A stretch of 33,491 nucleotides of DNA from Candidatus Wolfebacteria bacterium. Its GTDB lineage: Bacteria; Patescibacteriota; Minisyncoccia; UBA6257; UBA9933. Shown piece by piece: positions 15,929 through 26,178 of the stretch. The DNA lies in NCBI GenBank assembly GCA_024654025.1, contig JANLIR010000006.1:1-33491 (forward strand), given 5' to 3'. Below the pieces are notes generated by a model, which saw only the letters and a list, made by a program, of their open reading frames with translations, made no database searches and had not been told where the DNA came from. How positions within the stretch are numbered: the first letter of the stretch is position 1; every line of letters starts with the position of its first letter. Made by a program: the position numbers and the translations under genes.

Positions 15929-17203
15929 TTACTTCACAACGGCAAACCTGTAGTCCTTTTTACCTCTTTTTATTACCAAATACCTTCCGAATAAAAGATT
16001 CTTTTTATTTATTGCGAAGCTTGCGCTTATTGTTTTTTCTCCGTTTATTTCAATCGCCCGGTTTAAGATATCCTCGCGGGCTTGGCGCTTGGAATCAACA
16101 ACCTTTGCCAAAACAAGCAAATCAACGACATTTAAAGAATCAAATTTTTCCAGCTTTACGACTTCGGTATTTAATAAAACTTCTTCCAATTCTTTCTGAT
16201 TTAATTTTTTGACATCTCCGTAAAAAAGAACTTCGGAAATTTTTTGCGCCCTCTTGTAAGCGCTCTCGCCATGAACAAATGTGGTTATTTCTTTCGCCAG
16301 CGTTTTTTGAGCTTCCCTGTTTTGAGGGGCTTTTGAAAATTCTTTTTCAATTTCTTTTATTTTTTCCAACGGCAAAAAAGTAAAGTATTTCAGAAATTTA
16401 ACAGCGTCTTTGTCGTCAATATTCATCCAAAATTGGTAAAACGCGTAGGGGGAAGTCAATTTAGAATTCAACCAAATAGTTCCGAGATCTGATTTCCCTA
16501 TTTTAACTCCGTCAGAAGTAGTAATCAGCGGAGCCGTAAAACCATAAACCTCTTCGCTGGAATTTTTTCTGACTAATTCTATGCCGGCGGTAATATTCCC
16601 CCACTGGTCAGAACCGCCGACTTGCAAACGACAATCAAATTTTTTATGCAAATTTAAAAAATCATACGCCTGAAGAATCATATAGCTGAACTCCGTGTAC
16701 GAAATCCCCGCTTCTAAACGATTTTTTACAGCCTCTTTGGCAAGCATTTCGTTTACTGAAAACCTCTTGCCGATGTCGCGCAAAAATTCTATCAAAGAAA
16801 TTTTCGAAAACCAGTCGAGGTTATTAACAAATTTTATTTTTTTTCCGCCAGAGGCGGATCCGCCTTTGGAGGAGATGTCAAAAAAAATAGTAAGCTGTTT
16901 TTTTATCGCGGCGGTGGATTCTTTTACGTCTTTTTCGCTTCTTAAAACTCTCTCTTGAGATTTTCCGCTGGGATCGCCCACCATTCCCGTCGCTCCTCCA
17001 ACTAAAGCAATGGGCTTTAAACCGGCCTTTTCCAAACGCTTCATTAAAGTAATGATCAATAAATTTCCGATTGTTAAACTTGCGGCAGACGGATCAAAAC
17101 CCGCGTAAAAATACCCTTTTTTATCAAAATATTTTTTTACCGCTTCCTCGTTAGAAACTTGATAAATAAGCCCTCGTTCTTTTAATTCGTCGTATAAATT
17201 CAT
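15929..17203 (-). CDS. tyrS: Tyrosyl-tRNA synthetase
   Basis: YAGFDPSAASLTIGNLL, GGATGMVGDPSGKSQER, QVGGSDQWGNITAG, KIGKSDLGTIWL; start set at MNLYDEL because the longer ORF overlaps tRNA-Pro. Confidence 0.96.
   Translation of the reverse strand: MNLYDELKERGLIYQVSNEEAVKKYFDKKGYFYAGFDPSAASLTIGNLLIITLMKRLEKAGLKPIALVGGATGMVGDPSGKSQERVLRSEKDVKESTAAIKKQLTIFFDISSKGGSASGGKKIKFVNNLDWFSKISLIEFLRDIGKRFSVNEMLAKEAVKNRLEAGISYTEFSYMILQAYDFLNLHKKFDCRLQVGGSDQWGNITAGIELVRKNSSEEVYGFTAPLITTSDGVKIGKSDLGTIWLNSKLTSPYAFYQFWMNIDDKDAVKFLKYFTFLPLEKIKEIEKEFSKAPQNREAQKTLAKEITTFVHGESAYKRAQKISEVLFYGDVKKLNQKELEEVLLNTEVVKLEKFDSLNVVDLLVLAKVVDSKRQAREDILNRAIEINGEKTISASFAINKKNLLFGRYLVIKRGKKDYRFAVVK
16844..16873. repeat. 30-bp twin-hairpin element in frame inside tyrS (encodes SSKGGSASGG)
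   Basis: TCCGCC-AGA-GGCGGA followed by TCCGCC-TTT-GGAGGA. Confidence 0.8.
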
Positions 17204-17335: not shown

Positions 17336-18838
17336 TTATTTCACCCAATATTTTTTCTTCATCTCTTCTTCCTCGCCTGATTCGAATTCTTCTTTAGATT
17401 CTTTGGCTTTATCGGATAATTTTTTTAATTCTTTGTCGGATAATTTATAAATCCCAGCCGCGCGTTTGGATAAATATTCTTTGTCGTTTCTTTTCGGATC
17501 GTCTAAAACCTCTTCAAGTAAAATATTCAAAATAAATCCCACTTTCGGGCCTGGCTGAATATTTAACAATTCCATCAACTCATTGCCGTTTAATTTCAGC
17601 ATTTTCGGCAAAATCGGATCCTTTTTTACCTTATCAATCATAAAGAGCAGATGGCGAAGTTTGTAAGGAACCGCTTTAGGCACGCCGGAACCGATTCTGT
17701 CCGCTTCTCGAACTTTTATAAAATCATCAACATTTTCCGGACCAACGCGCGCTAAAAATCTTCTTACGCCCGCTTCGGTAACATCGCCGACATTATAATA
17801 AAACATATGATACCGGACTAAGTGTGAAACTTTTTCAATAAGCGATTTTGAAAATCGCAAACGGTCTAAAATTTTAATCGCCATCTTGGCGCTTACAACT
17901 TCATGTCCGTAAAAAGTAGACTCCGGACCTTCGCCTCTTTTGGTTTTAGGCTTGGCAATATCATGAAACAAACTCGCTAAACGAACTTCCAATGAATAAT
18001 TTTTCTTAACGGAGTAGTCGAAAGTTTTTAGAGAATGCTCCCAAACAGTATAAATATGGTGGCGATTTTGTTTAACGTTAATCCCCTCCCGCAATTCTGG
18101 AATTATATGTTTTAAAAGCCCCGCTTGTTCTAATAACTCTATTCCCATAGAAGCGTCTTTCGCCATAACAAGCTTTTCAAACTCGTCGCGAATTCTTTCT
18201 TTGGCAATCATCTCCAAAAGTCCAGCTTGTTTTTTTATTGACGCAAAAGTTTTTTCTTCGATTTCCCAGCCAGAGGCTGGTCCGCCTTCGGCGGAAAAAC
18301 CCGAGAGTTCAGTTGCAAATCTAACAGCCCGCATCAATCGCAAGGCATCCTCGGCAAATCTGGCTTCAGGATCGCCAACAGTACGAATTGTCTTATTTTT
18401 TAAATCTTTTTGGCATCCATAAAGGTCTATAATATTGCCCGCCATCCCTTCGACTACGCTCAGGGCAAGTGCGTTGATAGTGAAGTCTCGACGGGATAAA
18501 TCTTCCTCAATCGTTTTGGCGAATTTAATTTCATCCGGGTGCCTTTTGTCGGTGTATTTGCCTTCTATTCTATAGGTTGTTACCTCAATGACTTTTAATT
18601 TAGGATTTTCACTTTCTGTCTTTACGCCCACAGTGCCAAATTGGTTTTCATAAACGCTGTCTGAAAAAATATTTTGGATTTTTTCGGGTTTAGCGTTAGT
18701 GGCAATATCCCAGTCCTTTGGTTCTCTATTTAATAAAATATCCCTGACGCACCCGCCTACTAAATGCGCCTCAAATCCCGCTTCTTCAAGCTTTTGAGCA
18801 ACTTCTAAAACTTCTTTTGGAATATCCGTTTTAATCAT
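17336..18838 (-). CDS. CCA-adding enzyme/poly(A) polymerase family nucleotidyltransferase with HD domain
   Basis: HLVGGCVRDILLNREPKDWDIAT, RRDFTINALAL, LMRAVRFATEL, HDIAKP. Confidence 0.92.
   Translation of the reverse strand: MIKTDIPKEVLEVAQKLEEAGFEAHLVGGCVRDILLNREPKDWDIATNAKPEKIQNIFSDSVYENQFGTVGVKTESENPKLKVIEVTTYRIEGKYTDKRHPDEIKFAKTIEEDLSRRDFTINALALSVVEGMAGNIIDLYGCQKDLKNKTIRTVGDPEARFAEDALRLMRAVRFATELSGFSAEGGPASGWEIEEKTFASIKKQAGLLEMIAKERIRDEFEKLVMAKDASMGIELLEQAGLLKHIIPELREGINVKQNRHHIYTVWEHSLKTFDYSVKKNYSLEVRLASLFHDIAKPKTKRGEGPESTFYGHEVVSAKMAIKILDRLRFSKSLIEKVSHLVRYHMFYYNVGDVTEAGVRRFLARVGPENVDDFIKVREADRIGSGVPKAVPYKLRHLLFMIDKVKKDPILPKMLKLNGNELMELLNIQPGPKVGFILNILLEEVLDDPKRNDKEYLSKRAAGIYKLSDKELKKLSDKAKESKEEFESGEEEEMKKKYWVK
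18266..18295. repeat. 30-bp twin-hairpin element in frame inside the nucleotidyltransferase gene (encodes SAEGGPASGW)
   Basis: CCAGCC-AGA-GGCTGG followed by TCCGCC-TTC-GGCGGA. Confidence 0.85.
18446..18465. repeat. CCCTTCGACTACGCTCAGGG repeat-like element in frame inside the nucleotidyltransferase gene
   Basis: Encodes ALSVVEG on the minus strand; resembles a dispersed repeat word common in bacterial and metagenomic genomes (recollection). Confidence 0.55.
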
Positions 18839-25322: not shown

Positions 25323-26104
25323 TGAATATTTATAGAAAAATGATGGTTGTAGTTTTTGCGACCTTAAGTCTTTTTTTATTTAAAGGTCCGGTTTTTGCCG
25401 ACCAAATAGACCAGAATCCTAGCTCAACCACCTCAACAACAGCTGTTGTTTCCGCTCTGGAATCTAAAAAAGAATCCCTTACCGACGCCCTAACCGCGTC
25501 CTATGACGAATTAAACGAACTAAAAAGTGAGGTAGAATCGATAAAAGTCAATGACCCGTGGGATAAAATAAAAACAAACTTGTTAAATCAGACCGATAAA
25601 ATAAAGGATTATTACAATAACTCCAGTGAAAAATTGGGCAGCGAAAATATTGATCAAGATTCAATTAAAAGCTTGGCTAAAGAATTAAAATATTTTAGAG
25701 AGGGAGTTTTTAGCGAATATTATAAAAATTCAATAAATTTTATTCTTATTTTTGAAGAAGCTAATTTGTTAAAAATTGCTGACAGCCGTTTAGATAAAAT
25801 TTCATCTGATCTCGCTAGATTGGAAAAACAATCCGTTTCAAAAACTAAAACATTAAAAACACTTTATAATGACGCGGATAAACATTTAAAACTAGCCCAC
25901 GATTTAAACGACAGCGCCAAAACTTTATTTTATAACTACTTGAATCCCGTAAAACCCGACGAAACAAAGCCGGAAGAAACCAACCAAAAAAAAGAAGATC
26001 AGATTTCCGACCCTCAAGCGCTAATACGCAATATTAGCCATAAATCTCTTGATGAGCTTAAGGCCACTTACGATATTTTTATAAATATGAGTAAAACCCT
26101 GTAG
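25323..26104 (+). CDS. Secreted helical protein of unknown function in the ECF cassette
   Basis: Signal peptide MNIYRKMMVVVFATLSLFLFKGPVFADQ; start placed at 25323 within the longer ORF. Confidence 0.65.
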
Positions 26105-26178
26105 TGAATTTTGGCTTAATAAAATTTGATTTTACCCCGCCAATGGCGGGGATAGCCAAAATCTACTACGGGGTAAAA
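26096..26178. repeat. Nested palindromic REP-like element at the end of the ECF cassette
   Basis: Centre CCCCGCC-AAT-GGCGGGG (26135-26151); outer arms ACCCTGTAGTGAATTTTGGC (26096-26115) and GCCAAAATCTACTACGGGGT (26155-26174), 17/20 complementary; also TTTTACCCCG/CGGGGTAAAA. Confidence 0.75.

Follow-up and report, generated by a model that had tools for sequence, protein, structure and literature searches.

Two copies of a twin-hairpin element lie in coding sequence

The window (the whole stretch of 33,491 nucleotides analysed, from a genome of a Candidatus Wolfebacteria bacterium) carries on its minus strand the tyrosyl-tRNA synthetase gene tyrS (15929..17203; PDB match 2ts1, E 1.6e-133) and a gene for a nucleotidyltransferase of the CCA-adding/poly(A) polymerase type (17336..18838). 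The latter was named from its own sequence, and its orthologues were present in 54 of 61 genomes searched. By direct reading, a 30-bp twin hairpin is located in frame in tyrS at 16844..16873, with TCCGCC-AGA-GGCGGA at 16844..16858 followed by TCCGCC-TTT-GGAGGA, with one mismatched pair, at 16859..16873. On the minus strand, the element is read as FFDI|SSKGGSASGG|KKIKFVNNLDW. Another 30-bp twin hairpin (18266..18295) is inserted in frame in the nucleotidyltransferase gene, in the same phase as in tyrS, and encodes SAEGGPASGW. It is a stem variant, CCAGCC/GGCTGG + TCCGCC/GGCGGA, consisting of CCAGCC-AGA-GGCTGG at 18266..18280 (direct reading) and TCCGCC-TTC-GGCGGA at 18281..18295 (pattern search). 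Both of its stems are perfect, and the CCAGCC/GGCTGG stem is altered on both sides. The original prediction had reported the tyrS element and a second copy of the same phase, and both claims held upon direct reading. It had also described this region of TyrS as usually short and charged; in an alignment to a solved homologue, the block fell in a length-variable stretch. Within the window alone, the number of hairpins (3 mismatches allowed) was barely above chance, and the evidence rests on the whole genome.

Two other repeats were observed in the window. A short palindrome, CCTGAGCGTAGTCGAAGG, at 18447-18464 on the minus strand is read in frame as LSVVEG in the nucleotidyltransferase gene and probably represents a second family of coding palindromes. 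At 26096-26174, an intergenic inverted repeat with 21-nt arms (86% complementary) encloses CCCGCC-AAT-GGCGGG; this may be a further repeat or a terminator.

Copies are dispersed in the source genome

The half-element TCCGCCNNNGGCGGA occurred 24 times in the genome of 629,802 bases, and the reversed-pattern control gave 0. A covariance model trained on ten copies was run over the genome, with clear matches at E up to 2e-4; the tyrS copy, itself one of the training copies, scored E 5.7e-9. Based on pattern and covariance searches and an unbiased 100-kb sample, we counted 19 clear copies, namely fifteen 30-bp twins and four 60-bp versions with four hairpins each. The original prediction would have been refuted had genome scans yielded no further copies; they were found here and in many other genomes. 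Its description of the genome as CPR-like appears to fit the size of 630 kb and the many matches in Parcubacteria.

Except for the copy in valS, all 16 genic copies were found in one frame (frame 0), reading SAxGGSAxGG, and 3 copies lay outside convincing genes. Hosts of the 30-bp form in frame 0 are tyrS, the nucleotidyltransferase gene, dnaK, dnaJ, pheT (two copies) and the genes for L10, GAPDH, a ROK protein, a GH1 glycosidase and a class-V aminotransferase (IscS type); those of the 60-bp form encode a glycosyltransferase, MiaA (IPP transferase), a PfkB kinase and one further protein. The identities of pheT, the nucleotidyltransferase gene and the fourth 60-bp host were assigned from sequence only. 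Among 61 genomes, the 60-bp form was restricted to the source genome; it has therefore moved after the split from the same-genus species. The differences among the four 60-bp copies (L019, L023, L027, L028) lie mainly in the loop bases while the stems are constant, which is odd for ordinary mutation of recent copies.

Insertions are precise and seamless

TyrS of the same-genus genome G001 is 91% identical to that of the source genome and lacks exactly ten residues (30 nt) at the block, so the block is not a sequence conserved throughout the phylum. At the DNA level, GAAATT|AAAAAAATAAAATTT in G001 corresponds to GACATC|30 nt|AAAAAAATAAAATTT in the source genome. Thirteen further regions were searched jointly against G001. 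Exact 30-nt insertions were found in dnaK and the genes for L10, GAPDH and GH1, as in tyrS, and exact 60-nt insertions at all four 60-bp sites. Together, these amount to nine exact empty sites; each insertion is seamless, measures precisely 30 or 60 bp and has continuous flanks. No target-site duplication was detected at the nine sites or by a flank test. The PheT pair and IscS (no usable alignment) and the DnaJ, ROK and ValS regions (length too variable) were excluded from this comparison.

Both G001 and G010 have an empty nucleotidyltransferase site (exact in G010, with TTTT|GAAATAGAAGAA versus TTTT|30 nt|GAAATCGAAGAA in the source genome), whereas it is filled in the source genome, G013 and G022. 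The shared filling in three lineages could reflect either recurrent insertion or common ancestry. A 63-bp insert, SRRPSDGVGTPTPSLADVGAD, containing a CCCGAC/GTCGGG hairpin, follows QNIF in frame in the nucleotidyltransferase gene of G001 (L199) and is absent from the orthologue in the window; the gene looks like a hotspot of insertion.

The flanks are rich in TT/AA, and the consensus of the element itself ends with TCC...GGA. Position -2 is T in 81% of flanks and position -1 is T or C in 84%, in a symmetric pattern, which defines a TTN|AA-like target. Inverted matches between the two flanks at 4 bases numbered 0 (5.4 expected). This apparent deficit fits a one-base offset of the target (TTN|AA or TT|NAA), though it is not fully explained.

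Covariation supports two separate hairpins

The unit of 30 bp is composed of two abutting 15-nt hairpins, each with a 6-bp stem and a 3-nt loop. We examined covariation in 48 distinct two-mismatch copies taken from many genomes and picked by mismatch count, not by pairing. Under the twin-hairpin model, 98.6% of cells were paired, and 7 pairs and 40 cells were changed on both sides, relative to means of 3.1 and 7.7 in shuffled sets. A single long 30-bp palindrome was rejected as the conserved structure; its covariation was below that of its shuffles, although single copies can fold so. The stems are conserved, including at synonymous positions, and the loops are variable, with the third loop position (or its mirror) mostly A. 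The simplest inference is that the two hairpins are recognized separately.

Genic copies are concentrated in one reading frame

At least 118 loci contained the exact 30-mer (24 fixed bases). At these loci, 91 of 123 copies were located inside chosen ORFs of at least 100 amino acids. Their distribution over the three frames was 81:6:4, compared to 4965:3992:3634 for TTN|AA-like sites in the same ORFs (binomial p about 1e-22). Per 1000 target-like sites, frame 0 held 16.3 copies and sequence outside ORFs 12.2, while the other two frames, with 1.5 and 1.1, were lower by a factor of about ten. Per site, frame-0 genic insertions are therefore about as common as intergenic ones. The 118-locus set demanded exact stems and may favour young, conserved or coding-constrained copies.

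The stem variant TCAGCC/GGCTGA carries a TGA stop in frame 0 and therefore cannot sit within a gene in that frame. Most of its 22 copies lie outside convincing genes, a placement consistent with selection filtering a blind inserter. Host genes in other genomes include pheT, cysS, tsaD, dnaJ and those encoding a UvrD-type helicase, ATP synthase beta, phosphomannomutase and a Mur ligase. For TyrS, GAPDH, AtpD and TsaD, alignment to solved structures places the block either in a gap or in a stretch of variable length; in AtpD and TsaD, it is located in a gap of the solved homologues.

In four Ignavibacteria loci (L092, L121, L137 and L147), the element was repeatedly seen in different proteins inside NYPNPF|NP, a motif similar to the type IX secretion signal for C-terminal sorting.

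The element is distributed over many bacterial groups

Carriers of the exact 30-mer belong mostly to Parcubacteria and other Patescibacteria. Outside this group, it was found in metagenome-assembled genomes (MAGs) of Omnitrophota, Kiritimatiellae, Lentisphaerae, Ignavibacteria, Firestonebacteria, Auribacterota, Margulisbacteria, Zixibacteria, Deltaproteobacteria and Chloroflexota. When up to two mismatches were accepted, the element was present in the source genome's phylum in 57 of 380 genomes, at up to 28 copies, and 13 chosen MAGs of other groups contained 2-89 copies each; reversed controls were 0 in both searches. Copy numbers for other phyla come from these chosen genomes only. Some of the MAGs may be mis-binned, though several hold tens of copies. 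In scale, then, the observation is larger than originally claimed, extending to many phyla and up to 89 copies per genome.

In 1.04 Mb of DNA, 135 perfect twin 6-3-6 hairpins were found, 124 of them with TCCGCC/TCCGCC stems, and one Markov shuffle gave 0; this tally is enriched by design, as the DNA was mostly retrieved with the same pattern. Rfam gave no match over the element, save one far below its threshold. Carriage by phages was rejected, the 30-mer being present in just 1 of 2.9 million viral contigs.

Two side observations concern loci outside the window. In two genes of a single genome, the palindromes TGCCCGCC...GGCGCAGGC (L029:1789-1813 and L022:786-810) are read in frame as RLRQGFGGQ and RLRQDFGGQ, and constitute a candidate third family. 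In the same-order genome G047, in-frame TGA codons occur in several genes, including tyrS (L179), the nucleotidyltransferase gene and Y1 matches; its TyrS has two TGA codons, one at a conserved Trp (NNYDW), which suggests that UGA encodes tryptophan in that lineage.

Search for a mobilizing enzyme

Y1_Tnp (PF01797) had no match in the source genome or in four other high-copy genomes (G184, G386, G305 and G296). In other genomes, a twin hairpin was found within about 1.5 kb of only 1 (L317) of 56 Y1 loci examined (30 + 26). Over 61 genomes, copy number was weakly and positively correlated with Y1_Tnp (rho 0.29, p 0.03, without phylogenetic correction). A resident Y1_Tnp/RAYT was therefore rejected as the mobilizer, being absent from the source genome and only weakly correlated elsewhere; an enzyme that has diverged or been lost remains possible. 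No parent IS came to light, though not from a systematic IS search.

Discussion

Our analysis established the dispersal of the element, its precise and seamless insertion, a TTNAA-like target, evolution coupled to structure and a bias in reading frame. The feature in tyrS is likely one copy of a very small, non-autonomous mobile palindrome that is tolerated in coding sequence, though no intermediate has been observed and the mobilizer is unidentified. We propose that an enzyme acting in trans would recognize the pair of hairpins, with the DNA single-stranded or in cruciform shape, and join the unit to its target. The hairpins and the lack of a target duplication are reminiscent of HUH/Y1 (IS200-type) chemistry. 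Genes apparently tolerate insertion because the length is a multiple of three, the unit is palindromic and frame 0 has no stop. With palindromy, either orientation yields the same kind of peptide; in frame 0 this is Ser-Ala-x-Gly-Gly-Ser-Ala-x-Gly-Gly, which resembles an engineered flexible linker. Insertions in other frames and stop-bearing stem variants would be purged by selection. The element is probably selfish and near-neutral to the host protein; neutrality is inferred from the insertion densities, without protein assay data.

Among alternatives, it is possible that the element is of the REP/REPIN type, a minimal REPIN in the two-hairpin 'clover' form moved by RAYT (a Y1 tyrosine transposase). 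This would be a sub-case of the mobile-palindrome explanation rather than its opposite, with RAYT as the enzyme that is otherwise lacking. For REPINs, doublets of hairpins with compensatory changes have been described, as has a possible clover form recognized by RAYT (PMC3116915); the lack of target duplication resembles IS200-type chemistry, and the weak, phylogenetically uncorrected correlation with Y1_Tnp points the same way. Against it, Y1_Tnp is missing from the source genome and the four other high-copy genomes, the twin hairpin accompanies a single Y1 locus, the GTAG and CGTC end tags are absent, and REPINs are mainly extragenic.

A domesticated peptide or RNA regulatory element, selected for a function in its host genes, is unlikely. 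The dominance of frame 0, the good conservation of stems and the filling of one nucleotidyltransferase site in three lineages are in its favour; however, the host genes have no function in common, the block is missing from most orthologues, the density of copies outside genes is roughly that of frame-0 copies, and the stems are conserved even at synonymous positions while the loops vary. That the palindromes are terminators, protein-binding sites or uptake signals formed in situ, and not mobile DNA, is still less probable. Some intergenic copies are flanked by T and A runs, but the empty sites in a close relative, exact at 30 or 60 bp and with their flanks intact, and the mostly genic location speak against this reading, and a binding site would not predict inserts in multiples of three, in a single frame, in coding loops. 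Artefacts of assembly or binning, or local duplication and slippage, can be virtually dismissed: every other genome with a known title is a MAG, but the copies occur in assemblies that are independent and come from many sites and many groups, in a precise frame, without a local source copy and with reversed controls of zero.

A bolder version of the mobile-palindrome reading, which we hold only tentatively and consider somewhat less probable than its negation, is that a single family of 30-bp mobile palindromes extends over ten or more mostly uncultivated groups, is coding-compatible by design and is moved by an enzyme class not yet tied to such elements. The new class is invoked because Y1/RAYT is absent from several carriers. 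A flexible linker would be formed in either orientation, and genic insertions would therefore be kept as often as intergenic ones.

The closest parallels are the Rickettsia palindromic elements (RPE) and Wolbachia palindromic repeats, likewise short, palindromic, non-autonomous and in frame in genes of conserved proteins. These encode a tolerated peptide, occur outside genes as well and are seemingly selfish (PMC2229807, PMC10969869). In-frame insertion in conserved protein genes, a criterion for RPE, was met by 15 of 16 genic copies in the source genome and 81 of 91 elsewhere. However, RPE span about 100-150 bp, form a long stem-loop and are reported from Rickettsia, whereas the present element measures 30 or 60 bp, with tiny hairpins numbering two or four. 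It is 3-5 times shorter, inserts seamlessly, targets TTNAA and occurs in multiple phyla. The CGTC tag that terminates RPE in R. conorii (PMC3733652) is absent here (TCC...GGA ends). The original prediction of a small, non-autonomous palindromic element tolerated in coding sequence and analogous to RPE thus held as an analogy, which is well supported, but membership in the RPE family is not, given the different length and the missing tag.

REP/REPIN elements share hairpin units of 20-40 bp, a model of mobilization in trans and a possible two-hairpin fold, and their criterion, a hairpin doublet with compensatory stem changes, was met. Some REPs also occur within genes (PMC3116915, PMC3733652). 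The present element differs in lacking the GTAG/CGTC tag, in being mostly intragenic (91/123) and in having neither a consistent RAYT gene nor copies next to one. Bacterial MITEs (Correia/NEMIS, ERIC, RUP) are also small and non-autonomous, some with in-frame fusions, but share their terminal inverted repeats with a parent IS and usually generate target duplications. The present element shows no duplication, and a non-systematic search revealed no parent IS for it. In the open-access literature searched, no such elements were described in Patescibacteria or Omnitrophota; an earlier description elsewhere is not excluded. To our knowledge, no smaller precisely inserting element with demonstrated empty sites has been reported.

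For annotation, SAxGGSAxGG blocks in proteins from MAGs are insertion scars rather than conserved motifs, and they can mislead alignments, structure models and phylogenies. Selfish DNA inside essential genes, known from RPE of Rickettsia and Wolbachia, is here seen in a far smaller unit and in many phyla. Which enzyme moves a pair of hairpins of 30 bp, at what rate proteins accept a loop of 10 residues, and what role such insertions have in the evolution of protein loops thereby become measurable questions.
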